A stretch of DNA of 25,866 nt from IMG/VR virus record IMGVR_UViG_3300020578_000381, positions 1 through 25,866 of that record. The stretch is one strand, 5' to 3'. Within the stretch, counting starts at the first letter, position 1. The number at the start of each line of letters is the position of its first letter. The translations under genes were made by a program, and so were the position numbers. This document shows, in pieces, positions 1,270-25,335 of this stretch. The notes beneath the pieces were generated by a model. The model did not search any database. It saw only the letters and a program-made list of their open reading frames with translations, and had not been told where the DNA came from. Source of the DNA: a virus.

Positions 1270-1470
1270 TTATTTTGAATCATTAATTAATTGTCTTAAC
1301 AACAACTTAATCTCATCAATATCTTGTTTCATTTTATTCAATTCTTCTTTTTGCAATTCTCTATTGTGTAATGCATTAACATACTGATTATATGCCAAAG
1401 AATCGCAATTGATGATAGCTCCACTATTTTCATCACGATAAAGATTCTGATGCCCTTTTACTCTAATCAT
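1270..1470 (-). CDS. Small protein with predicted C-terminal coiled coil, 66 aa
   Basis: The 66-residue protein begins MIRVKGHQNLYRDENSGAII. The N-terminal half looks like a compact folded segment. The C-terminal half (about residues 36-62) is rich in Glu, Lys and Leu with regularly spaced hydrophobics (ELQKEELNKMKQDIDEIKLL), typical of a coiled coil. The ATG overlaps the TGA of the upstream DUF4815 gene (shared ATGA at 1467-1470), so translation is probably coupled. Small proteins starting with this RVKGHxNLYRD phrase occur, to my knowledge, next to structural genes in marine T4-like phages. The function is unknown; an assembly or oligomerisation adaptor for the large upstream protein is an inference. 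Confidence 0.7.
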   Translation of the reverse strand: MIRVKGHQNLYRDENSGAIINCDSLAYNQYVNALHNRELQKEELNKMKQDIDEIKLLLRQLINDSK

Positions 1471-4400
1471 CTTATTGCTATTGTTCTAAGTTCTTTAATT
1501 CTTGGTGGATATGCTTGATTAGTTCCGGACATTACAATTTTAATTACATATCCATTAAATAAATTAAGATTGTTGGCAGTAAATTCATATTCTTTAAATT
1601 CATTGTCCAAACTTGAAGATACAAAAGTATCTGGTTTTCCATTATTTTTAGAAGGATCTATAACTCTTAAAGAATTTAGATTTTCATATCCAGGGAATAA
1701 TTCAAACGCTTGTTCAATTTCACCGGAGTCTGGTCTAAACAAACTATATAAAATTCTAAAATCAGCAGATTCATGTCTATATGCCGATAAAATAACTTTG
1801 AGTGAAGATGCTGGTTGAGCTAAGTTTACTTTTTTTGAAATATAAACCGCAGCATGTGGATCATCTAATATAGAATTTGATCTGTTATCTAGCGTAAAAT
1901 CAGTAATTGGTCTGTTCAAACGACTTGAAATAAATTCGGTAAATGCGGTATCTAAAAATATTATGGGTGACAAATTGGGATCCGTTGTATTCAAATCTAT
2001 TGCAGTAGTAAATGATTTGTTTCTTGTTAAACCACTTAAATATTCAGTTTCATTTTCTTTGGAACATACAATTCTAACACTTTTAAGAACATTTAAAGAA
2101 TTTAGTTGGACCGGTTCATATCCATTATCTAAAAATGAAGTTTCATCTCCACCAACACTCGTTCCAGTTACAGATCTGATTTGAGCGGAAACTGATGTTG
2201 ATGATCCTGGAGTAATGACATCATATGTGGGTACTATTGAACTGTATAAAATATTTTCTGTTGCAAGAACGTTAGATCCACCTAATGTTGCTTCTGATGT
2301 AAATTGTATCTGTGGGTTTCCATTATCGGCGCTTCTATCCGCTCCCTTTGAACTTCCTCGATCAATTTGAATATAATATCTATCTAATCCAATATTTAAA
2401 TCATCAATATCATGAGTTGTATTAATTCTACGCAATGAAACCCCATTTAATTCATACTTATACATTAAACTATTAACAGAATGTGGAATTATAATTGTAG
2501 AATCAACGCCTCTAGTAATAGCATTCAAGGAGCCATTGCCAATAGATTGATATCCAATAATTTCATTTCCAATTTTTACATATCCAGTATTAGCCGCTCC
2601 AACAGCAATACCCTCAAATGTACTAAAAATTGCAGTGCCTCCAGCTCCAACAGAAATTGATGTTCCCGAAGCAGACAGTTCTGATGTAATTTGAACTGGT
2701 GCTAAACTAGATTCTGCATCCTTAATTCTAAGTTTATTAGTTTTAGCATACATGTGGTGATCAAAGTGATCTACTTGTATATAATTACCAGAATATTGAT
2801 TTGTTGAAGAGGCAAAAGATCTAATTGTAACACCAGCACCGGTCAATACATTAGAATCATTGTAATAACTTAATTCGCCACCATTAGTAAAAGTATTTCC
2901 TTGAATATTTGTTAAGAATAATGTATCTACTCCAGGAGATGTTAAAATAGAAATTCTTGCACCAGTCCCAGTTTTGCTAATAACGGTAGAAGTTACAATT
3001 CCAACTACATCTCCAACTTGGTAACCATTTCCTGGATTTACAATTGTTGGTGTTCCAGTGATTGTTCCAGATGTTGCCGTAATATTTAATACAAGCCCAG
3101 AACCCTTTCCTATAATGTTAAAAGTGGATACATTATTATTTGATGGTGTTGCCAAATCACTATCATAATTACTTCCTCCTGTGGTTAATCCCACCGTGGC
3201 CACAGAACTACCAGTTCCAAAAACGTAACCATATACATACGGTTTTGTTGTGTCTGCAACTTTTCTACCTTTTAACAAATTATTTGTTATAGAAGAGTTT
3301 GTTGTTGTAGTAATTCCTAAAGTCGCTGTTCTCGGTAATGTTGTTAATGGATTATTTGTTAGTTTCTGAACATAACCATTACTCTCATCTAATGTTGGAT
3401 TAAAGAAAGTGGCAGTCCCTGTCGGGGATGTAAACTTTGCCTTATAAAGTTTAAACTTAAGATCCTGATATTGATTTGCTGTCCATATAGATCCATTTTG
3501 AGATTTAAACAAACTTCCCATTGAGAATTGTTTAGAGTATGTTACGGCATTTACATCGGGAAGACTTGCAGTATTAACAGTTTTTTCGCCCATGATTGCC
3601 GTCCATAGTTCATAACTATCACTATTTTCCGAAATAATTACAACGGCATATTCTCTTCCTGGTGGTAGATAAATTGGTTCATCAAAGGTAATTTTAGTTG
3701 CAACAGAAGCATCTGCAGAAATATTAACTTGACTTGGTCTTAAAGTAACTGGAGTTCCAATAACAATCCTTGTAGGAGTTCCAAGTTCAACAGTTCTTAT
3801 TTCAACTTTTACCGGAGCATTGCCACCATCTTTTTTAGCAAAGAATAAATCAACGGCAGTTAAAAATGCACCGTTTATGTCATCGAATGTAGATGTTGGA
3901 GAGGGAGCCTCAACATTTCCACCAACAACAAATGATTGTGCAAGAGGATCAACAAATCTTTGAATTGTTGTTCTTGTATGGGTGTTTATTGTCGTTTGCG
4001 AGGTTGTTGTATTGGTTGTAAGATTTACTACAGTTTGTGTGGTTAAATTTTTAGTTGTGTTTGTAACAGTATTCTCCCATTGCTCAAGAGTTCCATCAGA
4101 ATTAAAATTTGTTTCTGCAAATGAAGTGTCCGAACTTCCAGGAAGACCAGGATTATTTGATGAACTTGAAGACAATTTAAACGTTTTAGTTCCAGTAGGA
4201 ATTCTTACAGTTGGAGTTGGAGTTCCATTTGGATCTCTTAAGAAAAAGGTTCCAATTAAATCTCCAAAATTATCAGAAATCAATCTTAGGTTAGATACAA
4301 ATGCTACGGCACCGCTAGTTTGCCCAACCAGCTGCATACCAGAAACTAAATATCCAGAATATTTTCCTTGAGCTTCTTCTGATAGTGAAATGGTATCAAT

Positions 4401-7400
4401 ATTTAAAATTGTAGATGACTGACTATATCCTGATGATATAGATTCATTTCTATTATATGGATTAATTGTGTAAGTTGCTGATGGTGCGTTATATGGTCCA
4501 TACTTGTGATTTGGTGTTGCAACCCTAAATGTAATTAAATTCCTGTTATCAAATCTCCCTATAACTGCTTCCCCTATTATAAATGCTTTAGATGGATTTG
4601 AAATTTCAACTAATTTTGGAATAAAATCAACACCACTATTTCCATCTAAAAATTGATAAAATTGAGTCGATGGTTTAACATTAGATACTGAGAACTGAAT
4701 GTTTCTAGATCTCATAAACGATTCTTTGGACGATGAAATTAGAACATTTCTTATTGTAGTATCAGTATTACTTACAGTATCAAAAGTTGAAGATGATGAA
4801 AGTGAAGAAGTTGTATTAGTGACCGTATTAGATGTTGTGGTACTGGTAGAATCAGTTATTGTTCTATTCCCTCTCCCCCTAATTGTTGGTAAATTAATAG
4901 TTTCTTCAGTATTGATGTTAATTGGTGCTAATGTAACCGCAACATTACTTGTCAAATTTTGAGTAAGTATTCTACTAGAATTTAAAGTTATATCAATATT
5001 TTTATCTGGAAGCTGAACTGTTCTAACCCAATTATCAATCTCTGGACTGAGTTTAATATCACCACTATACACAATAACATTAAATGGATTTACATTCTCA
5101 ACGGTTGTCGCAAATGCTTGTTCTATCCATCCAATAGAATCATATTTTAAAGTTAGTGCCTGCCCAGTTTTTTGAACATTTGGATCTAATAATTGGAAAT
5201 TTTGCGACGTATCTAATTGCTCATCAATGACTGAAATTGCTGGGGCAAGTTGCGATTTGAGTGAATTTCTACTAACAATGGGTGTCAATTCATTTGCAGA
5301 AGTATTAACTCTTATGTTAGACAATCTATTATTGGTGAATGCATAATTTTTAAAGTCATCAACAAAAAATCCACTCTTAAATCTATTATTTCCTTCCTCA
5401 TCTTGAATTTGTAAAGTTTGAGTATTTAATTCAAGTAGTGATAATGAAGTTACTCTCTCTAAATTTTCTACCCTATCTTCAATTAAACCAATATCTCTCA
5501 TTGTATATCGTCTATTATCCACTAATGTTACAACGGCATTTGCAGGGTTGTAAAGATATGGTGGTAATTTAATAGTTGCAATTTCCATTACCGCATCACT
5601 TTTAGATGGTGCCTTAGGAGTTTTTGAAGATATTCCTCTTTCAACAATAAATGTTCCGGTTTTATCTAGATATAATTTATCAATTCTTGCTAGATAATAT
5701 TCATATCCAAGTAAAGAACTTTCGTTTGGTGATAAAATACGAGTTGGTTTTATAGTTCTCGATGAAAAATCAAATGGGGAAGATGAAATTTCAGTAAATA
5801 CAGGAACTCTTGGTCTAAAATCTAATGTATCGGAAGTCCTTATTGAGTTCTGATTAATAAATGGAACATCATGAGTGAATCTTTCTGCGTCATAACTCAA
5901 AACTGTAAATATGTCACCAGAATCATCTAACGGCACAGAATAATAATCAAATACGATTAAAAGTTTTTTAGATGGTTCTGGAGTATTTTTATTTCTAACA
6001 ATTTTAGAATAATCGTAATATTGATTTTTTTGACCCTTATTAAGACTATATGAATTTGTAATATCGTTATATTTTCCAGGAGTAATTGATTCAATATTCG
6101 TTTTTATTTTTGATTCACTAAATGTAATATCCTCGGTAGATGTCAATTTTTCTGAATTCAAATATACAACTCCTAAAACATTTGTTGATTCTTTAGTAAC
6201 AACTCTAGCAATAGCGCCGCTAGTTGACCCCAAAATATTTTCGCCAATAATTGCATTTGTTGTTACATTAGCACTGGCACCAAACTGTATTTTGTCCAAG
6301 GTAGGTGCTGAAGAATCATATGATTCGTATATTGATATTATTTTTACAACATCTGGATAATTTAAGGATATTTCTTCGTCCTGAACTCTTAAACCATAAT
6401 ATTGATTATATGAAAGACCATCTCCAATTGATGAGCTAATACCACTTCCCGATTCTGGATATTTTGATTTATCCACAATTAAAGTCTGACTTTTGTTATA
6501 TGTTTTTATTTTACTTTGAATTCCATTTTTAATTATTGTAGAATTTACAACAACATTATTTGTTTGGTTAGGAGTTAATCCACTAATAGTTATAGTATTT
6601 CCACTTAAAACAAATTGATCTGAAGTTACTGTGCCAATGCCACCATTACTATAATGTATAGAATATCTTTCTTGATCAAATGCTTCAAAAAATGCGCTTG
6701 AGATACCACTAATTGCAGATATGTCAAATGTCAATACTCCCTGAGCATTAGTAGATTGTCCGGTTATTTGTTGAGAAAGTTTTAATAAAGAATTAGAAAG
6801 ATTTACTGAAGCAATATTATTATCTGGCAATTTTGCATATAATCCAGAATCCTGATTTCTTATAAACGGAGCACCAATAGAAACATCAGTGAATTTTCCA
6901 TTTGTAATTACACCATCATATACACCCGCCACGCCTGGTGTAGGTGCAATGGTTAATGTTCTACCGTCTGGGGAAATTGCTGTGACTCTATTAAATGTTG
7001 AAAAATTAGCCGGAACTGTAACTCCCAATCCAGAGATTGAACCATCATTTAAAATAACTTGAAAAGAGTTTTGTGATAATGTGGTTTGATATCTAATAAT
7101 TGATCCAACCTTTACTCCTATAAAGTTTTTTCCAGCACTTGTTACAGTATTTGATCCACTTATGGTTAGTTCAGTTACCCCATTTGGAAAACTAAATTTT
7201 TCAAGAACGCAATCTGCCGTAAATTGTGAAAATCCTGTTGATGCATTTTGTTGTACTGATTTAATATCATCAGTAGAATATGCTATTACGGATTTAATAG
7301 TTCTTGAAAAGTCTAGTCCATTAACAATCAATTGTTCTCCAACGTTAAAAGTTCCGGAAGTTTGACTTAAATTAATAGTTGTAGAATTTTCTCCGGCAGC

Positions 7401-8873
7401 AACGGCAAAACCACTGGCTCCACTACTTTTCCCCTTAACAAAGGAAGTTTTTGGCAATTCTGTATTTGATACCGAAGAATTTAAAACAAGAGTAGTATAT
7501 GTTTGAATATCATACAAATATAAATTAAAATTGGTAGAAGCATTTTTGTAAGGAGCATCATCCAAACTAAAATTATATACTCTAGCATTACCAATAGTTG
7601 TAATTCCTGCCGATCCTTTTAATCGATCACACAAATTTATAATCTCTGTCTGTTTTGCTGTTCCAAAAACATTATTGACTTTTAAAATATTTCCCATTTC
7701 AAAAGGAATATTTACATTTTCAATCTTTTCAGTGTCTCTGGGTTTTTTTACATCAAGAATAGTTGCTGAAATTTTGTCTATATCATATCCCCGAACATAA
7801 GCTTTTCCTGGAGATATTTTTACACACATTAAATCTTCAGACGGTTTATTTTTTTCTGCTGTCGTTTCAAAATCAAAAAATAATCCATTATTTCCTAGTC
7901 TATCATTTAATGAATTATTTACAAAAACACTAAATGGTTCAACTGTATAGTCACCAGATTCATCATAAGTTCTAGCTGCCATATAATCTTTGATTATATT
8001 GTATTGAGATTTTTGTTCAATTATTTTAATTTTTCCATTTTCAACTCTTAACAATTCAATAAAATCTGTATCATTAAGATCTGATATTAATTTTTTAGTT
8101 AAGGTTAAATTAATCTTAAACCTATCAGCACCTGGTGCCGCATAGTTTGTAAATCCTTTTGAAGGGTCGTATAATGATTTTTCATCTTTTGATCCGATAA
8201 TTAGTTCATCAATTTTTAATCCTACTCTATACGAAGGGGTATTACTATAATCATCTAAAATTATAGTTTGTTTTGATACATTAACAAAATATCCTCTAAC
8301 AAAATAAACACCATCACCTATTGATGCTGAAGACCCTACGGATGTTGCACCCAATGGTATTAAAGACGCAAATGGAGTTCCTGCATTAATAGTTGTATTT
8401 CCATAAGTTATATTTTTTTCTGCAATTAATGCCTCACCATCTTGAAACGGGTTAAATTGAAAATTATTATCAGAGTCTAAATATTTTACATATATGGTTA
8501 AATCAGTTATATTTGAATTATTTGGAAAAGAAACAAATTGAATTGTTGCACTTGTTCCTGATATTTGGCCGGTTACCTTCATTCCAATAAAATTATTAAT
8601 ATAAAGAGATATATCAACTCCAAAATTAGTCGAATTAAGTTTTACGGAATTAAAATTTCCATCATATGCAATATTTCCAGGAATCACCATTGATCCGTCT
8701 TTAAACATATGACTTCCAAAAGTCTTTATTTGATTCTGCAAAATTGATTGCAGAGTTGTCAGTTCTCTTGCCTGTACTGGAAACCCGGGTTTAAATAGGA
8801 CTTTGTAAAAATTCTTATTAGAATCAAAATCATCATAGTATGGATTAATATTTAAATCTGTTTTTTGTACCAT
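1467..8873 (-). CDS. Very large DUF4815-type virion structural protein (baseplate/fibre), 2468 aa
   Basis: The N-terminus carries the DUF4815 signature seen in marine myovirus structural proteins: NPYYDDFDSNKNFYKVLF and GFPVQARELTTLQS at about residues 11-45. The family signature continues to LDFRPRVP and NRRYTMRDIG (about residue 1118), then a short heptad-like segment IEDRVENLERV. Thr/Ser/Asn-rich linkers lie at about 1334-1375 and 1599-1637. A DPLAQSFVVGG phrase (about 1641) opens a probable jelly-roll-like domain. A GxGY-type module (about 1890-1950) and an RG...H module (near residue 2118) resemble parts of gp7. The C-terminus has SLFRPDSGEIEQAFELFPGY and ends YPPRIKELRTIAIR. It follows gp8, the position of T4 gp9/gp10, but I see no homology to those. 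It is likely a peripheral baseplate or fibre-attachment component. No clear Shine-Dalgarno is present; the start lies 6 nt after the gp8 stop codon. Confidence 0.85.
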   Translation of the reverse strand: MVQKTDLNINPYYDDFDSNKNFYKVLFKPGFPVQARELTTLQSILQNQIKTFGSHMFKDGSMVIPGNIAYDGNFNSVKLNSTNFGVDISLYINNFIGMKVTGQISGTSATIQFVSFPNNSNITDLTIYVKYLDSDNNFQFNPFQDGEALIAEKNITYGNTTINAGTPFASLIPLGATSVGSSASIGDGVYFVRGYFVNVSKQTIILDDYSNTPSYRVGLKIDELIIGSKDEKSLYDPSKGFTNYAAPGADRFKINLTLTKKLISDLNDTDFIELLRVENGKIKIIEQKSQYNIIKDYMAARTYDESGDYTVEPFSVFVNNSLNDRLGNNGLFFDFETTAEKNKPSEDLMCVKISPGKAYVRGYDIDKISATILDVKKPRDTEKIENVNIPFEMGNILKVNNVFGTAKQTEIINLCDRLKGSAGITTIGNARVYNFSLDDAPYKNASTNFNLYLYDIQTYTTLVLNSSVSNTELPKTSFVKGKSSGASGFAVAAGENSTTINLSQTSGTFNVGEQLIVNGLDFSRTIKSVIAYSTDDIKSVQQNASTGFSQFTADCVLEKFSFPNGVTELTISGSNTVTSAGKNFIGVKVGSIIRYQTTLSQNSFQVILNDGSISGLGVTVPANFSTFNRVTAISPDGRTLTIAPTPGVAGVYDGVITNGKFTDVSIGAPFIRNQDSGLYAKLPDNNIASVNLSNSLLKLSQQITGQSTNAQGVLTFDISAISGISSAFFEAFDQERYSIHYSNGGIGTVTSDQFVLSGNTITISGLTPNQTNNVVVNSTIIKNGIQSKIKTYNKSQTLIVDKSKYPESGSGISSSIGDGLSYNQYYGLRVQDEEISLNYPDVVKIISIYESYDSSAPTLDKIQFGASANVTTNAIIGENILGSTSGAIARVVTKESTNVLGVVYLNSEKLTSTEDITFSESKIKTNIESITPGKYNDITNSYSLNKGQKNQYYDYSKIVRNKNTPEPSKKLLIVFDYYSVPLDDSGDIFTVLSYDAERFTHDVPFINQNSIRTSDTLDFRPRVPVFTEISSSPFDFSSRTIKPTRILSPNESSLLGYEYYLARIDKLYLDKTGTFIVERGISSKTPKAPSKSDAVMEIATIKLPPYLYNPANAVVTLVDNRRYTMRDIGLIEDRVENLERVTSLSLLELNTQTLQIQDEEGNNRFKSGFFVDDFKNYAFTNNRLSNIRVNTSANELTPIVSRNSLKSQLAPAISVIDEQLDTSQNFQLLDPNVQKTGQALTLKYDSIGWIEQAFATTVENVNPFNVIVYSGDIKLSPEIDNWVRTVQLPDKNIDITLNSSRILTQNLTSNVAVTLAPININTEETINLPTIRGRGNRTITDSTSTTTSNTVTNTTSSLSSSSTFDTVSNTDTTIRNVLISSSKESFMRSRNIQFSVSNVKPSTQFYQFLDGNSGVDFIPKLVEISNPSKAFIIGEAVIGRFDNRNLITFRVATPNHKYGPYNAPSATYTINPYNRNESISSGYSQSSTILNIDTISLSEEAQGKYSGYLVSGMQLVGQTSGAVAFVSNLRLISDNFGDLIGTFFLRDPNGTPTPTVRIPTGTKTFKLSSSSSNNPGLPGSSDTSFAETNFNSDGTLEQWENTVTNTTKNLTTQTVVNLTTNTTTSQTTINTHTRTTIQRFVDPLAQSFVVGGNVEAPSPTSTFDDINGAFLTAVDLFFAKKDGGNAPVKVEIRTVELGTPTRIVIGTPVTLRPSQVNISADASVATKITFDEPIYLPPGREYAVVIISENSDSYELWTAIMGEKTVNTASLPDVNAVTYSKQFSMGSLFKSQNGSIWTANQYQDLKFKLYKAKFTSPTGTATFFNPTLDESNGYVQKLTNNPLTTLPRTATLGITTTTNSSITNNLLKGRKVADTTKPYVYGYVFGTGSSVATVGLTTGGSNYDSDLATPSNNNVSTFNIIGKGSGLVLNITATSGTITGTPTIVNPGNGYQVGDVVGIVTSTVISKTGTGARISILTSPGVDTLFLTNIQGNTFTNGGELSYYNDSNVLTGAGVTIRSFASSTNQYSGNYIQVDHFDHHMYAKTNKLRIKDAESSLAPVQITSELSASGTSISVGAGGTAIFSTFEGIAVGAANTGYVKIGNEIIGYQSIGNGSLNAITRGVDSTIIIPHSVNSLMYKYELNGVSLRRINTTHDIDDLNIGLDRYYIQIDRGSSKGADRSADNGNPQIQFTSEATLGGSNVLATENILYSSIVPTYDVITPGSSTSVSAQIRSVTGTSVGGDETSFLDNGYEPVQLNSLNVLKSVRIVCSKENETEYLSGLTRNKSFTTAIDLNTTDPNLSPIIFLDTAFTEFISSRLNRPITDFTLDNRSNSILDDPHAAVYISKKVNLAQPASSLKVILSAYRHESADFRILYSLFRPDSGEIEQAFELFPGYENLNSLRVIDPSKNNGKPDTFVSSSLDNEFKEYEFTANNLNLFNGYVIKIVMSGTNQAYPPRIKELRTIAIR
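3960..4075 (-). other. Thr/Asn-rich linker in the DUF4815 protein
   Basis: The segment encodes a low-complexity stretch of about 39 residues dominated by Thr and Asn (for example TTQTVVNLTTNTTTSQTTIN). It lies just before the DPLAQSF domain and probably forms an extended hinge between the N-terminal body and the distal domains. Confidence 0.6.
4750..4870 (-). other. Ser/Thr-rich linker in the DUF4815 protein
   Basis: The segment encodes a low-complexity stretch of about 41 residues dominated by Ser and Thr (for example TSTTTSNTVTNTTSSLSSSS). It separates the DUF4815 body from the next domain and looks like a flexible or extended spacer. Confidence 0.6.
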
Positions 8874-8879
8874 TTTTGG

Positions 8880-10421
8880 TTAGAATTCCAGAATAATTTT
8901 AATGTCTTCTTTTTGCCTAATATCTCTTGTTACCAAGGGGCGATTATCAATATAAATTATATCTCCCTTCTTTTTATTTATGTCTGGATTTGAAAGACCA
9001 TTTGTAAACACTGTTCCCAAATTTATAGATTTATTTCCAATATTAATTTGACTTCCTGTAGGGAAAGCAGTATCAATAGATGCAGTAAATCCTTCGCCAA
9101 CTATTGACCCGCCAGAAGATTGAAAATCATAAACAGAAGTTACATTATTATAATCAGTTTGATCTAAATTATCCTTAAAGTATAAAGATCTATCTCTAAA
9201 ATATTTAAGTACTTTTGTTTCACTATCATAGGATGCTATGTACGCTTTTGCAGTCCCACCAGTTACAGATTGAGTTATTTCAGTTCCTATTATTGGAGTT
9301 CCCGTAAAATTAGAAGTAAATTTAATTGCTCCTAAAGATGAATATTGATTTTCTGTAAAAATAATAGTATCAGAAGAATATGTGGTTGGATTTTTTATAA
9401 TACCAACTTGTGAAAATTTAGTATCAATAGGAAAATCTTTGGTTGAATCATCAAATCTCGCATATATTAGTATTTTATCTGTTCCCAATTCAGTATAAAT
9501 ATCACTTCCATGTCCTTTGGATGGTGGAATAATTGGAATTAATTTTGCAGGATTTGTTAAACTTCCCTCCGGTTGAATACTCCCCAAATCAACGATTGCC
9601 CAAGTATACCCAAAACCTCCTGCCGTAACTTGTGTAGAGATAATAGATCCAGACGAATCAACATTGACTAATACTTTACCACCGCTACCGTCTCCAAGGA
9701 TATCAACAATTTTTGAACTATATCCAGCACCACCATTTGCAATGTATACTTTTTTGATTTGATTTGGATTGGTAGAACTAGACTCCCCATTTTCTCTCAA
9801 ACTTACAATTTGAGCATCTGTCGAAGTTGCCCATTCGTTAGGAACAACAACATATTCAGTCGAATCAAATTTTATAATATCGCTAGGTAAAATTGAAAAT
9901 AAATACTTCCAAATATATCCATCTCCACTTGTTCCGGCTGCTGAAGGTTCTAGATCAGTAAACGTGGGTTCATCTTGTGATTTATTTCCTTTTAAGTTTA
10001 CGCCAGAAGATCCATTATCAATACAAATATAAACTCTAAAGTCACTAGTAATTACATAGTAATTTGAATCATATAGTCTACTAGAATTAGAATTTGGTGA
10101 TCGATTATTTATGCTATAATCATGACGATACATGTCATATGATGTATTAGACTGCCACTGAACTTTTCTTATGACTCTTCTAATATTAGCAGACGTAATT
10201 TTTTTACCAAATAATGCAGTATCTCTGTAATGTGAAGGATATTCAAAATTATCAATTGGATTTGGTGTATTGTTATTCCAATTAGTAGTTCTCCCAAATG
10301 CAACTTTGTCTGGATTATTTAATCCCAAAAAAACATAGTAAGAATTATTGGTGCTCACTACAGAATCTACAAAATTACTTGCATTTAATATTCTAAATTG
10401 ATCGGTTACAATTGCTGGCAT
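8880..10421 (-). CDS. 8: Baseplate wedge protein gp8, 513 aa
   Basis: This is a homologue of T4 gp8, a wedge component that binds gp7 and gp6 and connects the hub-proximal wedge to the periphery. Three segments match T4 gp8 as I recall it. The N-terminus is AIVTDQFRILNASNFVDS (T4: AIVTSKFRTEKMLNFYNS). The middle is GDGYIWKYLF (166-175) followed by EYVVVP (189-194), like T4 GDGYVWEYLF and EYIVVP. The C-terminus is GDIIYIDNRP (486-495) ending IKIILEF, like GEMIYMENRP and INILFTF. At 513 residues it is clearly longer than T4 gp8 (334). The extra length lies mainly between about 200 and 480 and includes a paired GxGY module (about 225-280) like those in gp7. A late promoter motif precedes it by 15 nt, and no Shine-Dalgarno is visible. 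Confidence 0.9.
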   Translation of the reverse strand: MPAIVTDQFRILNASNFVDSVVSTNNSYYVFLGLNNPDKVAFGRTTNWNNNTPNPIDNFEYPSHYRDTALFGKKITSANIRRVIRKVQWQSNTSYDMYRHDYSINNRSPNSNSSRLYDSNYYVITSDFRVYICIDNGSSGVNLKGNKSQDEPTFTDLEPSAAGTSGDGYIWKYLFSILPSDIIKFDSTEYVVVPNEWATSTDAQIVSLRENGESSSTNPNQIKKVYIANGGAGYSSKIVDILGDGSGGKVLVNVDSSGSIISTQVTAGGFGYTWAIVDLGSIQPEGSLTNPAKLIPIIPPSKGHGSDIYTELGTDKILIYARFDDSTKDFPIDTKFSQVGIIKNPTTYSSDTIIFTENQYSSLGAIKFTSNFTGTPIIGTEITQSVTGGTAKAYIASYDSETKVLKYFRDRSLYFKDNLDQTDYNNVTSVYDFQSSGGSIVGEGFTASIDTAFPTGSQINIGNKSINLGTVFTNGLSNPDINKKKGDIIYIDNRPLVTRDIRQKEDIKIILEF

Positions 10422-10436
10422 ATTGATGTTTTTAGA

Positions 10437-10444
10437 TATTTATA
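10437..10444 (-). promoter_or_regulatory. T4-type late promoter motif TATAAATA overlapping the gp7 stop
   Basis: A perfect minus-strand TATAAATA contains the TAA stop codon of gp7 (10440-10442) and lies 15 nt upstream of the gp8 ATG. If used like a T4 late promoter it would give a leader of only about 10 nt. It would let gp8 and downstream genes be made independently of the 12-kb gp7 gene. Confidence 0.6.
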
Positions 10445-13400
10445 AGAGTTTTGGAAGTGCTCCGGTATTTCTAATACCGGAATTTCTTCTTTGAATTGTG
10501 GGGAAAGTCGAAAGACCAACATCAACAGTATTTCCAGTCACTCCTATAGAAATTGGAGAACTTGATCTACTGAATCCAAATAGTCTTCCCCAAGAGTATC
10601 TTCCAACAGGATTTGATATGTTTCCAGTGGAATTTAAACCGACTACGGATGTAGTTGATAATATATTACAAGTAATAATTCCAACTATTCCAGTACTAGA
10701 CCAACTACTAATATAGTAAATATTATCTACGAAAGTTGTTCCAATTCCAACTTTTGAAGAATCTGAATTGTCAATAGAAGTTACTCCAGTACCAACTCTT
10801 GTATCAAAAATATAAATTGGATATCCAGTGGACAGACCAGCAAATGATTGGGAGTTAATATGGAATTTAAGTGCCAATGGATTTCCCCCAGTGCCTGTTG
10901 AAGTTGTGATTCCAGTAATAATTCCAGAAAATCCATTGACTGTTGATGATATTTTAGTTATGTTTTCATATATTGGATTTGGGAATGGTGCAATAACTTT
11001 TGGTGGACTTGAGGACGTATAACCAAAACCGGGATTAGTAATTGTTATTGGTGTTGTTAATGTTCCACCTGCACTAACTGTAACTGTTGCAGTTGCGATA
11101 GATCCTATTCCTACTCCTATTATAGAGGGTGAAGAAATTTTTACCACAACTGAATTTCCAGTGTATCCACTTCCAGAACTATTAATAACTAATGATTGAA
11201 TTGTTCCTGCCGCCGAAACAACCGCAGTTATTCCTGCTGCCACCGGATCCGCAGATCCATTTATAATTATAGCTCCAAAATCTGTTGGATTTTCATAATC
11301 AAAGAATTGTGCATTATCAACAAATATTTCATTATCGGTTGTTGAAAAATTTTTAATAATTTTTGCTGTCGGATATACTAATGGTTCAATTGAATCTCTT
11401 GTTTTATAAACGATTTGACCATTAATTATTTTATCTGATTTTTGTTTGATCCAACTTAATGGTTTATTATCTATTTCATCTATTCCCCGACCAGTATAAA
11501 GATTAGTTTCAAACTTATCCGAGAATGATAGATCAAATATTACTCTCTTGTCCTGTGTAACTGTTTTAGAAATTGAATTATTTTTTAATACTTGTACTTG
11601 ATCTCCTTTTTTTAAAGTTTCTGGTACATTTGTAACTAATGTACTATCATCTTCTGCTGTTCCTCTATAGAAGAAAATCGCAACATCATCTTCTGATTTG
11701 GGGGCAGTGGTAAATACGAAACTAGTGCCACCTTCAAATTCATATGCGACTCCAGGATCTTGAATTACGCCATTTATAACTATTAGTAGAGAATTAGCAA
11801 GGTTTACTTGAGATCCTTTTAACTTTTCAAAACTTAATAACTGATCATTATAAAATAGAGGAAATCTTCTCCTTACTCCATCTTGATAATTTTTAACAGA
11901 ATCAATATAGTCTAATTGACCAAATTGCCATAGTGCAAATGAATCCGAGAAAGTACTAAGAACAGTCAATTTAAATTCAGATAATGGAGATGCTAATCCT
12001 TTGGCAGTCACTAATCCTACAGGTTTAAATACGTCCCCTCTTTGGAATGCATAACCTTGTCTAGAAATACTAAATTTGGAAACCTCAAAATATGTAGACC
12101 CAATTCCAGTTGTAGAACTTGCACCAACTTCGACATTAAGTAAAAGTCCAATTCCAGTATTAGTTGTTGCACCAATTCCTAATCTAGATACACCAGTTAT
12201 GGTAAGATTTTCATAAGATGGTTCAGATACAAATATTTTAGGATTTGTATATCCGGTTCCACCATCAACAACAGTAAAGGAAAGTGTTCCACCCACACCA
12301 ACTGATGCAGTTATGATTGCAGTATTTCCAATATGACCACTTTGATATACTGAAACTCCTATCGCAACAATTCCATTATATCCAGAACCAAGATTATCAG
12401 TAGTTCCCAATCCAACAGATACTATACTACCTCCAGCACCAACTACAGCAGTAACTGCTGCTCCTGCAAGTGGTGCATATCCAAGACCAGTAGAAGATCC
12501 CAGAGAAATAATTATTCCACCTCTAGGAGTTTGATTCTGATTTATATCCGAAAGTGAAATAGTAATGTCATCTGTAACAGCGTTTCTGATTCCGGAAAAT
12601 ACTACACTTGATATCCCAACACTGGAGTTTTCAATAATTTTAAAATTATTTTTTGGATTATTTAAAGTTTCTGGTGTTTGGAAAACACTGTTTATGAATA
12701 ATATCCCATTTCCTCCGGTGGTTCCAAGTCCAACAGTATTGGCTCCACCTACTCTCAATGCAAATGTTCTTCCTATACCAGTGAATTGATCTGAAATATC
12801 ATCATAAATTTGATTTGATGTATAATCATTTCTTAAATATACTCTTCCGGCAAAATCCGATGTTTCAAAATTTAAATTACCCAAATCTTTATTAATCTGT
12901 GGATTTCCTCTTGGAGATTCCGTAAAGAAAATATTATTTTTTACAATATTATAAGAACCTTTATAAATTTTAGCTTCAGTAGAATCTGTGTGAGAAGTTG
13001 CAGATGATCCAACAAACCCCCTTGTAACCTCAACTAAATTAATAATTCCACTATCCGTAATTGGTCCAATATTAGTCGTCCCAAAACCAACATTAACAAT
13101 ACCCATATATTCATTATCAACTTTAAGAATATCTTTTGGTGATATTGTTGATATTCCGCTTAAAGAAAATATTGTAGATCCTGCACTAATTTGACCACCA
13201 TTTCCAGATAGTGTGTGTGATATTTTAGTGAATATTAAAGGATATTGTGCTAAATTATCAATAGTAATAATTGCCTTTTCATTCTTTTTAAACATTTCAA
13301 GTTTATGTGCATTACCAAGACCGTATGAAGTAAATGTAACTCCTATTCCTAATTGTGCATAGTCTGGTCTTGTGGATAATTTAAATGAGTTATCAGATAT

Positions 13401-16400
13401 TTTAATAACATAAACATCAGAAGGTAGTATTGTAGTTACGACTCCAACAGAATTTAAAGTTGCTCCAATTCCAACTGCACTTGTTCCAATTCCAACGAAT
13501 GTTGATTCTGGTGTATAAATTAATCTTTCTTTGGGACTAAAGAAATGATTTGGTATCGTAAATTCTCCGGTAGAAGGATTTAATATATTAGAATTTGATG
13601 GATCAAATGTTTTTGTAAAAATTGGTACTCCATCAGAAGTTAATTTAAAGTCTTTTCTATTAACTCTATTTCCATTAATAGCATTGTAAAATTGTAAATC
13701 AATAGATTCGGTTACACTTCCATAAGTTAAATCCGGTGCAATATTTTGCGAATCTAAAATTGTATACAGACATTGATTAAAAGATGAAATTTTTATCTGT
13801 GATGTTATTGAAGCGTCTGGATAGAATTTTAAAGAAAAATTATCTCCAGAGTATTCTCCACCAAAAGTTCCAATTCCAGTTGCACTGTTGGCGGAAAGAA
13901 ATGGAGACTGTTGGACATAAATGTTAGACAGGTCCTGAACCAACATAATTTGATGGAGAGCACTCGTTGACCCAACACTAACCTCAACTAAAGATTTGAT
14001 AGCATTGAAATTAAATTTGTCTAATGATATAATTGATGTCGATGCCGCAGAAACTGTGGATGTGTAAACAGATTGGTATAATGCTCCCCGCTCAAATCCA
14101 GACAATTGACCATTCAGTAAAAATCTATGAGTTCCACCACCAACAGATGTTGTACCAAATCCAACGACCTTAGATCTTGTATTAACAGTGTTTAATGAAT
14201 TATTTGTATAATTTAAGGATAAAATTCCCGAAGAAATAGATGCACCAAATGTTCCTATAAAGTTTCCGGAATAAAGATTAGTTGAAAATTCAGAATCAAA
14301 ATAGTATTCTGAAATATAAGTATCAGTTCCATTATGAGTTAAATATACCTCAACAAAATTCATTTTATTTGGTATTGTTGTTGTATCAATAATCTGAACA
14401 TTTGTATATAATGAAGAGAATTGATTAGATTGTACTGATAGAATAGAAGTTGTTATTCCAGATCCTATTGATTTGTTTGATCCAGTCAAATTAATAAATC
14501 CAATCGGATTTGTTCCAATTCCCGGTAAAATTGTATTAAATCTACTTTTGATTAATTTGATATCATAATCAATATTAAATGGATCATTAGGTTCAAATCT
14601 TAAATAACCATCAATTATTGAGAATTCTCCAAAATCATCTTGCGCGGTATATGTAAGTCCTACTCCAGAATTAATTATTTTTGATTTTTCTGCTAGAAAA
14701 TTATTAGTACCATCATTTAATAATATTAATTCAGTTAATTGAATTTGTGTATTATTCAGATCAGAAACTCTAATTAATAGATTATCATAAGATGTTCCAG
14801 AATTTAATTTTATTAAATTTAAAGCTTTACTAGGACTTGTATTTAAATTGGAAAATTGTTTGTTTATATTGTCTATTTTTAAAACAACATTACTTTTACA
14901 TTCAATATAACTTGATAGTTTTTTATTTTTTAATTTTAATAATTTTGAAAAAACAGTTGATGTAATTCCAGTGTTTACAGTGACTACATCAACATCATTT
15001 ACCAAATCAAAGTCATAAATTGTATCAACTCTATTTTCTTCGACAATATCACGAATTATAGTTGTCGAATTATTAGATGTTGTAATTCCAGATCTTGCAG
15101 TTGATGTGATTCCAGTATCCGAAAAGTTTTTTAATCCACTAGTATGGACCAAACTATTGACAGGAGTTCTTAATTCATTATAAGTAATTGGGCTCTTTAT
15201 TGTATACGAAAGATTCTGATAATAATCATTATCCTGTACTACTTGATCATCATAATTTAATCTCCCTACATTATCAGACCAACCAAGATTTTTTCTGACA
15301 GAATAGTCAACTTTAAATTTTCCAGTGCTAGCATCAATTTTACTTACTGTTGCTATATTTCCAGATTCTTTTCCGGTGATAACATCGCCAACAACTAATT
15401 CATAATCTCCAATCACCTTAATAAAAAAGGAATTACAATCAGAAATTTTTAAATCTACCTCATTACCATTAACTACTAGATTTTCCCCAATATTAAATAA
15501 AGAAGAAATTTGTTTAACATCAAATGTGGGATAATCTTTTTTGTTTACAATGTTTGGAATAGAATCTTGAATTGTTTTTGCTATCCCAGTATTTGTAGTT
15601 AACCCTGAAATATTAATAGTGACTTGATGAAGATTTGTAGTGCTATTGTAATTAGATACGGGAAAAAACTTGTATCCATAATCTTCGGAGTTAAATCCAG
15701 ATCCATCAGTACTGAATTTTTGAATTCCTTCTATAAAAACTTCATCATCAGGCCCAAAGGGGTTTGTTGAAAATCCAAGTGTTGGTGTTGTTATGAAGCA
15801 AGTAAAAATTCCACTAGAATTAGATTGAACTTTTTGAACACTAACTCCATTAGTATTATTAGTAGTAAATAGTTTTACTGATGTTTCTGAAAGACCCTTT
15901 GGTTTTTGTACTATATTTACCGAAGAAATTGAAGATCCAGATAATTTTGCCTCTAATATTCCACTATTAATCTTTTGTCCAGTACTGGAATCTACAATTA
16001 CAATTGATGGTGAGTTTACATATTGTCTTCCACCACTAGTGACTGTGATAATACCAATAGTATTTGAATTTTTAATTGAAATTAGTGGTGATATGTATGA
16101 AATTGGCTGTAAAGTTTTATCTGAAGAATATTCAAATCCTTCATCAATAATTCTTACTTCTCTTGCATTACCTATAGATGTTGATATTGCAACAATAAAA
16201 GCATCTTTTCCACTGGTAGAATTAGATCCCACAAAAATTGGAATCTTTTTATACCCATATCCTCCTGAAATAATATTAATTTTATCAATAGGACCTTTTG
16301 CAGTCAATGATTTCGTATTGTATTTTAATACACTACATTCATTTTGAGAATATTTTAGTTTTTCTGGTTTTTCGATTAAAGATATATTGAAGGTCGTTGA

Positions 16401-19400
16401 TCCTATGCCAGAAACTGTATAATTTTTTAAAGTATAAGTACTATTAATAAATAATATTTCCGAATAGTTAGTCACTGTTTTATCAGAAGTACTAATGTAT
16501 CCAGATTTTTCTAAATTATAATATATTTTATCTGGTAAAGACTCATCATAATTAACAGTCAAAGATGCAGTAGAAGAAACACCTACTGTCCCAATACCTG
16601 ATATTGTAAATTTACCAGTTTTGGCAGTTGAAACGAACTCTTTACTATAACTTTGATCATAATAAAGTTTAAATTTATACCCAATTAAGGAACTATCTGA
16701 TAAATTAAATACTAAATTGTTATTTTTAACTGATTTGATTTGAGGATTTACTAATGAAATGCTTTGACTTGATCCTCCAGTACTAGCAATGCTTACCACC
16801 GTTGGAGGAGTAGTTTTATTATCAATTAAAGTTTTAGAAAGTTTAATATTATTATCATCAACTCTAATAACATAATAAAAATCTGTTGTCAATCCAGATG
16901 CAATTAAATTTGCAGAATATAAAACTTTATCACCGGTTTTTAAATTATGAGAATTAATAGTAATAGTATTTGTTGTTGTATTGATACCAGTAGAGTTAAA
17001 TCCAATTGGGTTAATTAAAATATTCCCGGTTAACAAATCTCTTTTAACATTTACAAATGATGAGGTTCCAATACCAACAGAAAGATTTGATTTAACTTCT
17101 AAGTCAATAGTATCTTCATTGGATAGTTGGTGAGAAGTTGATACTGAAACTGTAGAACTAATTTTTTCAACTTTTCCAATAATTTGTGGATATAGACTTT
17201 CAAATGAATACTTTTCATTATTAGCATCATTTTGATTTACTGTACGAAAATATACTTCAGAAGAATTTAGATTAGTTTTTATTCCAATAACATTCTTATT
17301 TTTATTGCTTACATATACCGGAGAATTTGTAGGTAGATTGAATGTAGACGATGTTGGTGAAGTTGAAATTGCTATTTCTCCGCCCGGTAAACTTACCGTT
17401 GGTGGAATTTTAAATATTACTGCTTGATTATGAGTAAATGGATGATTTTCAATATAAATTCCCTGTGTTGGAATAACTCTCGTAATAGTAGAACTACCAA
17501 ATGATACAATTATAGAATTTGTAATTCCCGAAATAGTTCCAACTCCTACTGATTTTGTCGGGTTAAAATATACTTTATTATTTACATCAGATTCAAAATA
17601 ATCTATATTTTGCGAAATGATAAATGAATCTGGAATAAAATTTATTTGTGTTGTTGCAGTATGAGAGACTCCGGTAGATCCTCTTTCAACTTTAAGTATA
17701 TTAAGATTTTTAAATACCTCCAATATTGACAATGTTTCACTACCAATTGTAATGCTGCTTCCAATTGATACTATTTCAGGAAATTGAGAAATGTAGATTT
17801 CTGTTACCACACCAACCGTTGATGCTGGAATATCTTGGGCAACGTTTGAATAATAAGAGGATACGCCAATTTTATATGGTTTATTTAATTTTGATAAACT
17901 GGTTGAAAGTCCAGAAATTACAACATAATCATTGTTTGATAAATTATGATATGGCAATATATTTACTTGTACTTCATTACCGTTTTTCCAAGTAAAAATA
18001 GAATTTTGATAAGTTTGTATTGAAGTGTTTATTTCTACAATATCTTTTCCACCTATCGATGATACTCTTGCGATAACCCCCCCACCTGAAGTATTTGCAT
18101 CGTCAAAATTTAAGACGTCATCTATCTTATAATTTGTTCCGGAATTGATAATGTTAAATCCACTTATACTTCCTTTGGATACTGATTCTACAATTGACTG
18201 TTGATTTATTTTATTTTCCGGTTCAATTATAAAATCATTTCCGGCATAATTATCAGAAACTTTATATGGCAGAGTATTTCGAGATAAATTCGAATCATTA
18301 AAATTGTATGATTGGTTAAGAGTTTTATTTTCATTTAATGTCTTTGATCTATATGTATTTCCAATAAAATATGGGAACTTGGGAATTAATGTTCCCGAAC
18401 TAATAGTTGCAAAGTATGCATATACACCATTTGGAAATTCTGGAGTTTTTCCAAATCTTCCATTATTTTGATCCAAATCTCCGGAGTTATTATATTCGTA
18501 ATCTTCAACAAAAAATCCTGCAGGAAATTGTGGTCTATCAACAACATTAGAGGTATTTAAAATATATCCGGGAGTTAGTATTTTTGGAATTGAACTAGAG
18601 TTTTCTGGATCAGAATAACCATATGGTCCATATATTGGATTACCATCATAGGCCCATCCGATTATATTGGATACTTCACCATTATCATTAAATGATTCTC
18701 TCAATTTTTTAAAATATCCACAAACTGAATATTGTAATTTATTATCAGTCTCTACTAATATTTCATCCCCAAACTTAAAATTATGATTAAGCGATAAAGA
18801 TCTAATATTAGCATTAAATTTTGCATTAGATCCCGTAGATTGCACATTAATTATCGTTGACGTAGAAGAATATCCAATACCAGTATTTACAACTTTAACG
18901 TCTATTATTTTTCCGTTGGAAATAATAGGTCTCAATTCTGCCCCAGTTCCTGCTCCAGATAAATCTTTTACATTTAAGTTTGGAACGGAATAATATTCAA
19001 CTCCGCTATATTGAATATTAACATTTGTAATTTGACCATTTATAATAACTGGTTGTATACGTGCCTCTTTACCATTTTTTATAGTTATTATTGGAGATTT
19101 TTCTAGATTTAAAATTGTAGACCCATAACCGGTTCCACTTTTATACAAATAAGTATCAATAATACTACCAGTAACCACTGGTGTTACTATGAGAGATGAA
19201 TAAGTTTGAGTTGTTGTACCAATTCCTACTGGAGAATATAATATAGAAACAGAAATATCGGGATAACTAAAATATTGATATCCGGATCCAATTCCAGTAA
19301 ATTTAACATAGTTTTGTCTACTATAATTCGATATATCAGTCCCACCAATTCCAGCATCACAAAGTCTGAAAGAATTATTAGTATCCTTAAGCACATAATA

Positions 19401-24975: not shown

Positions 24976-25302
24976 TTAACGATCTATTTCACGTATTGAA
25001 TATGAGTCTGAATTAAGATATTTTAAGATTTCTAGAGCGATTAAACGTGGATTTCCTTCACCACAGGTATAGACATCAACTGCCAAACACTGATTTTCTG
25101 GCCAAGTATGGCAAGAAACGTGACTTTCTGCCAATGCGATAACGATTGTACACCCTTGTGGATCAAAATAATGCAAAAAAGTGTTCAAAATCTCCATTTT
25201 TGCACGTTGAATGCCTTTAATCATGGCATTTCGAAGTGATTCTGCATCATTAATTGCCTCAGGGGCAATATTATACGCTTCTAAGAGCAAATGTTTGCCC
25301 AT
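24976..25302 (-). CDS. speD: S-adenosylmethionine decarboxylase proenzyme (SpeD), 108 aa
   Basis: This is a short single-domain bacterial-type SpeD. Such enzymes cut themselves at an internal serine to make a pyruvoyl cofactor, then decarboxylate S-adenosylmethionine to the aminopropyl donor for spermidine synthesis. With the ATG start, the cleavage motif is ALAESHVSCHTWPE, with the pyruvoyl-forming Ser at residue 60 and the conserved His at 65. It is followed by AVDVYTCG with the catalytic Cys at 80, and the N-terminus is MGKHLLLEAYNI. All key residues expected for an active proenzyme are present. The frame opens at a TTG (25317) directly after an in-frame stop, but the ATG at 25302 fits the family better; neither has a Shine-Dalgarno. 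A NATAAATA motif lies 34 nt upstream. speD is a known auxiliary gene of cyanophages. Some phage SpeD relatives are reported to decarboxylate arginine or ornithine instead, so the substrate is probable, not proven. Confidence 0.92.
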   Translation of the reverse strand: MGKHLLLEAYNIAPEAINDAESLRNAMIKGIQRAKMEILNTFLHYFDPQGCTIVIALAESHVSCHTWPENQCLAVDVYTCGEGNPRLIALEILKYLNSDSYSIREIDR

Positions 25303-25335
25303 TGAATGATGTTTCAATTAAATTATTGTAAAAAT

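Follow-up and report, generated by a model that had tools for sequence, protein, structure and literature searches.

A small beta-barrel module common to the DUF4815 protein, gp7 and gp15 of marine T4-like phages, probably a loop-inserted decoration domain

Results

Module copies in two long virion proteins of a baseplate cluster

The window, by which we mean the whole stretch of DNA analysed here, is a 25,866-base IMG/VR virus record carrying a T4-like baseplate cluster on the minus strand, with genes for gp25, gp6, gp7, gp8, a 2468-aa DUF4815 protein and a fibre-like protein. Among named phages, it is closest to cyanophages such as S-SKS1 and S-SRM01. The DUF4815 protein (positions 1467..8873, minus strand) was recognized by Pfam DUF4815 (7.6e-54) and phrog_358 and belongs to a type of virion protein that in cyanophages and pelagimyophages is frequently named VrlC (PMC7029224). 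The gp7-type baseplate wedge protein (10440..22400, minus strand; phrog_2885, baseplate wedge subunit) is 3986 aa long and contains a YHYH domain at residues 1230-1334 (Pfam YHYH, 5.3e-24). Just upstream of the cluster lies an S-adenosylmethionine decarboxylase gene (24976-25317, minus strand; Pfam AdoMet_dc, 5.6e-31).

The first-pass annotation had proposed that gp7 and the DUF4815 protein share a small module, on the basis of short strings in both proteins, all of which were found where it had placed them. In the DUF4815 protein, VKIGNEIIGYQSIGNG begins at residue 2099 (window 2579, minus strand) and ITRGVDS at residue 2119 (window 2519, minus strand), with its RG at 2121, and the string pairs of gp7 are located at residues 106/128, 1554/1573 and 3092/3127. 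The segment singled out in that annotation, window 2455-2640, corresponds to DUF4815 residues ~2079-2140 and the full module is somewhat longer: this copy, here called D1 (window 2439..2708, minus strand), matches the module HMM over residues 2063-2145 and has an insert footprint of ~2056-2138, as judged from the HMM, hhalign, an AlphaFold model and an alignment with homologues in which the site is empty.

The module measures 65-90 aa and is present once in the DUF4815 protein and at least four times along gp7, all on the minus strand. Copy G1 (residues 85-147; 21960..22148) carries RGFSG..YH and, self-matches aside, gives the best profile match to the DUF4815 module, with a corresponding fold. 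Copy G0 (residues 322-384; 21249..21437), a fifth copy that the first-pass annotation did not list, has lost RG..H and was recognized by the G1 profile (79 bits), by hhalign to G1 (96%) and by its fold. Copies G2 (residues 1519-1599; 17604..17846; RGSTGVSH) and G3 (residues 3061-3155; 12936..13220; RGFVGSSATSH) match one another by hhalign at 93%, and G3 in addition matches the DUF4815 module at ~50-57%. Identity between the gp7 and DUF4815 copies is just ~20%; E and R residues are kept across the copies. The hallmark of the module, an E in an I(D/G)(D/N)E hairpin together with RG..H, is in the light of the models most simply taken as a fold-stabilizing signature, because G0 keeps the same predicted fold without RG..H. 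An essential functional role of RG..H was considered and is doubted, given this copy.

Other small repeats in gp7 (residues ~966-1036, 1178-1190 and 2722-2880), one of which reads H.F..GD.V.Y...Y.VI..DN..F.L, cross-match the module copies weakly. The DUF4815 protein has a second block at residues ~1830-2010 (window ~2840-3390) with GSGY..GDVV-type repeats, which is seemingly optional and is skipped by the profile in Melnitz-2 and MED4-213.

Insertion into single loops of the DUF4815 protein and of gp15

When homologues that have the module are aligned with those that lack it, the D1 barrel falls within a single loop of a beta domain that acts as its host in the DUF4815 protein (residues ~2026-2215; window 2229..2798, minus strand). 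Five DUF4815 homologues that lack the module and align on both flanks (Cygsa01, ACG-2014e, AG-345-P14, S-CAM3 and Sf-CH1a) show one clean gap inside this domain, whose pattern around the gap is V.V.H..HGM...N.V.I.G..[module]..L.GI.L..IN.TH, and the module occupies the same loop in syn9, ACG-2014b, Syn19, S-SKS1, Melnitz-2 and MED4-213. A profile of the flanks with the module excised scored the module-less homologues modestly (E 4e-4 to 0.06), and the case for the empty site therefore draws on the alignment and on strong matches elsewhere in the same protein.

A third carrier is a gp15 tail sheath stabilizer (phrog_227, 1.5e-91) of 355 aa, encoded at 9209-10273 on the plus strand of locus L062, into which the module is inserted. 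In most of the loci gp15 is shorter, at 259-287 aa, and lacks it, and the module-less forms of L046 and L055 retain both edges of the loop, so that in gp15 as in the DUF4815 protein a clean presence/absence gap shows the module sitting in a loop while the host domain stays intact. The gp15 insert matches gp15 of cyanophages such as S-SM2, P-HM2, Bellamy and S-SSM7 and has relatives in at least 80 virus contigs; Bellamy has the module in its DUF4815 protein as well. Many marine phages (L063, L064, L066 and L176-L253 besides L062) carry the module in gp15 as a loop insert of ~70-90 aa, and most others seen lack it; the loop edges resemble a calcium-type motif, D.N.DGV..A.D.

Giant fibre proteins are further carriers, and barrels of matching fold occur in siphophage hubs and in tailspikes. 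Three syn9 proteins contain the module, namely gp101, at two places, gp103 and gp105, which is the DUF4815 protein of that phage. Another carrier is the GTA-like Pseudanabaena phage Pan4, whose tail protein Pan4_15 (phrog_11439; L152:10653-12365) was matched with E 3e-9.

Sequence evidence that the copies form one family

An HMM built solely from DUF4815 orthologues of the module matched gp7 at residues 103-134 (i-E 1.4e-4 in a six-protein set), scoring G1 at 10.3 bits as compared with a maximum of 4.1 bits among 400 locally shuffled gp7 sequences. G1 was the best match of this HMM in 80/80 gp7 orthologues, which are related and hence do not count as independent observations. For profile-profile comparison, the hhalign background consisted of ~195 tiles of 80 aa cut from five proteins of the window, with a separate orthologue alignment for every one; apart from itself, the DUF4815 module matched best G1 (prob 94) and then G3 (prob 49.5), with unrelated tiles lower. 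Independent agreement came from PHROG profiles: phrog_4406 is matched by the DUF4815 fragment at columns 92-122 and by the G1 fragment at columns 81-143, two ranges that overlap, and further matches of module fragments are to tail-fibre, tail-protein and baseplate-wedge PHROGs.

The direct HMM scores of G2 and G3 against the DUF4815 module did not rise above those of shuffled sequences, and by hhalign G2 reached it with a prob of 6-8, so the link of these copies rests on profile-profile comparison and intermediates. G2 is joined to the DUF4815 module through G3 (93), and a second bridge is the gp15 module, with matches to G2 and D1 (88.9 and 81.5) as well as to G3 (76%). With the gp15-module profile, the 11 best of 199 tiles all overlap G2, DUF4815 or G3. 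D1, G0, G1, G2, G3 and the gp15 module thus belong to one sequence family, its members being linked above background either directly or via intermediates.

It could be argued that the beta-rich repeats of long phage proteins resemble each other by composition, through convergence or low-complexity chance, and indeed single-sequence scores between gp7 and the DUF4815 protein are low and the score of the G1 profile on the DUF4815 protein was equalled in 3/400 shuffles. However, the DUF4815 profile scored above every shuffle and all background tiles, an independent family, gp15, selects exactly the module tiles, and the predicted folds agree, which makes such an explanation hardly credible.

Predicted fold and solved relatives

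AlphaFold models were made for DUF4815 residues 2020-2230 (D1) and for gp7 residues 60-420 (G1 and G0). The core of the D1 module was modelled with a pLDDT of ~90-96; the gp7 model has moderate overall confidence (pTM 0.46) and confident module cores. For D1, G1 and G0 alike the models predict a small beta-barrel, closed or nearly closed, of ~65-90 residues, with identical strand order in all three. The DUF4815 and gp7 models match the same solved proteins of tailed phages, namely GP4 8jov_1 (Z 10.9 and 9.4, respectively), the Chi tail tip 8vjh (Z 9.0 and 8.9), the JBD30 hub 8rk3_b (Z 8.3 and 8.3) and the tailspike 4ru4 (Z 7.1 and 8.5). The D1 model also matches lambda gpJ 490-567 (Z 6.3), and the fold of G0 matches Chi, JBD30, LKA1 and T4 gp7 760-851. 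Among predicted viral structures, the module recurs as an isolated match of ~90 residues in many fibre proteins. Profiles and predicted folds that match the same solved tail domains together bear out the proposal that the DUF4815 protein and gp7 carry the same small module. The expectation of the first-pass annotation that the copies would be linked above background by profile and would agree in fold held for D1, G1 and G0, the copies modelled.

In sequence searches with the module profile, Chi 8vjh_A was detected with an E-value of 8e-5 for the whole chain over two copies, the best single copy being weak (i-E 0.085); this match lies at 537-578 and agrees with the structural one, which starts at 488. 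Solved members other than Chi were not found by the sequence profile. Searches of solved structures with the DUF4815 module or the gp15 module alone returned just noise (bacterial-microcompartment proteins, RSC8 and similar), and a profile of the whole DUF4815 2020-2230 region found no solved relative. The barrels of F1-ATPase and EF-Tu matched at Z 5-7, below the phage tail proteins. The barrel fold is hence a common one, and likeness of fold alone is no proof of descent shared with lambda gpJ or the tailspikes.

Discussion

In this study, we followed a small module through the long virion proteins of a T4-like phage cluster. On the combined evidence it is probably an OB-like beta-barrel of the F1-ATPase-N-terminal type that decorates structural proteins of tailed phages as a plug-in domain, being of the same kind as the OB domain of lambda gpJ. 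In lambda gpJ, residues 483-569 have been described as an extra beta-sandwich inserted in HDIV (PMC10721106), and this segment has been termed an adorned OB domain within an HDIV loop (PMC11101478). The structural match to the module covers exactly gpJ residues 490-567 and starts in Chi at 488, Chi being detected by sequence profile as well. Like the module, the barrels of lambda gpJ, the Chi tail tip (8vjh) and the JBD30 hub (8rk3) are small and inserted into a loop that belongs to a larger domain of a tail protein; however, sequence identity to them is low (7-16%), and they belong to siphophage hub proteins, whereas the carriers described here are the T4-like wedge protein gp7, the DUF4815 protein and, elsewhere, gp15. 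Two oligosaccharide-binding domains have been reported to decorate domains of the distal tail protein of JBD30 (PMC11445458). In this protein, gp49, the decorating domains V and VI resemble the module by description, being small and attached to tube-fold domains, with binding being the authors' naming (PMC11445458). The N-terminal barrel of the F1-ATPase alpha/beta subunits and domain 2 of EF-Tu share the general fold, with no sequence link or functional relation.

This kind of module, a loop-inserted OB-like decoration domain, is thus known from solved phage tails. Its sequence family is absent from Pfam, in which no model scored above noise with six module sequences, and in a literature search we found no paper describing the module as common to gp7, DUF4815 and gp15. 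Its recognition shows that the very long virion proteins of abundant marine phages, poorly annotated as they are, can be divided into real domains, allows annotators to place the barrel in gp7, DUF4815/VrlC, gp15 and fibres, and connects these carriers to solved tail tips.

As to its role, the barrel may decorate the virion surface, being inserted in a loop in the DUF4815 protein and in gp15, and by analogy it would pack against neighbouring subunits and stabilize them, perhaps also giving weak glycan contact. We propose this role because the authors of siphophage structures describe OB-type decorations, and a small barrel that stabilizes the baseplate has been described in a siphophage (PMC11445458). 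The barrel would accordingly serve as a decoration rather than as a single specific docking interface. The first-pass annotation had raised a shared docking role, in which the module would be a dedicated adaptor through which a common partner, a fibre or a wedge, binds both gp7 and the DUF4815 protein. Both proteins are encoded among the baseplate genes, their copies retain the E and R residues, and the module was found in 6/6 records searched, with several copies in five of them. However, gp15 at the neck has it too, as do gp101 and gp103 of syn9, giant fibres, PHROGs of tail fibres and tail proteins and a tail protein of a GTA-like phage; it or a barrel of matching fold recurs in tailspikes and siphophage hubs, and some cyanophage DUF4815 proteins lack it entirely. 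A docking role shared by the two proteins is therefore unsupported, and we regard a dedicated adaptor as improbable.

A further suggestion concerns function only and would refine the decoration reading rather than propose a competing anatomy, namely that the module is a weak carbohydrate-binding domain, the barrels giving avidity for cell-surface glycans, a role that has been suggested for the OB domains of other tail proteins. This agrees with the name oligosaccharide-binding domains given to such decorations in JBD30 (PMC11445458) and with the occurrence of the barrel fold in glycan-active tailspikes. On the other hand, the neck copy in gp15 is an unlikely point of host contact and OB-like barrels are frequently pure structural parts, and we consider glycan binding conceivable, if on the unlikely side. 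For the decoration reading as such, gp15 and DUF4815 proteins with and without the module provide a natural comparison for testing what decorations do.

The first-pass annotation had also invoked gene-internal recombination. On an evolutionary scale this is in agreement with our data, since a single loop of the DUF4815 protein, and likewise one of gp15, is occupied by the module in some homologues and empty in others; as a recent exchange it is contradicted by a tree of 64 copies. In this tree, in which the rows are short and many forks unresolved, the position labels need 4 changes, the minimum possible, as compared with a mean of 39 when shuffled. The copies cluster by position and not by genome and, to judge from their sequences, are inherited in place. 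A recent exchange between gp7 and the DUF4815 protein within this phage was likewise rejected in view of this position-clustered tree, with its short rows, and of the ~20% identity between the copies. Gain or loss of the module inside genes did take place, as an old event, and the interpretation of the first-pass annotation is partly supported.

In the solved T4-type gp7, residues ~760-851 (5iv5_BJ) are alike in fold to G0 and its flank (Z 8.5 over 91 residues), and the helix just before G0 is recognizable by sequence at 728-759 of a T4-type gp7 (E 0.024). On these grounds G0 probably corresponds to a barrel already present in gp7, to which the other copies were added. One matching barrel was found in the solved chain of ~1030 aa, whereas gp7 of the window, at 3986 aa, holds at least four diverged copies.

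More tentatively, and with somewhat less than even confidence, we suggest that in marine T4-like phages the barrel may be a mobile plug-in and an exchangeable decoration, which has spread over unrelated virion parts (the wedge protein gp7, the DUF4815 protein, the neck protein gp15 and giant fibres) and has been gained or lost cleanly at single loops. If true, a mobile barrel would retune particle surfaces without breaking the host protein.

In the Synechococcus phage S-SKS1, the gp7 region (L151:19731-29925) is largely unannotated and broken up into three open frames (710, 1601 and 1113 aa), in which the module copies follow in order; frameshifts or sequencing errors are possible there.
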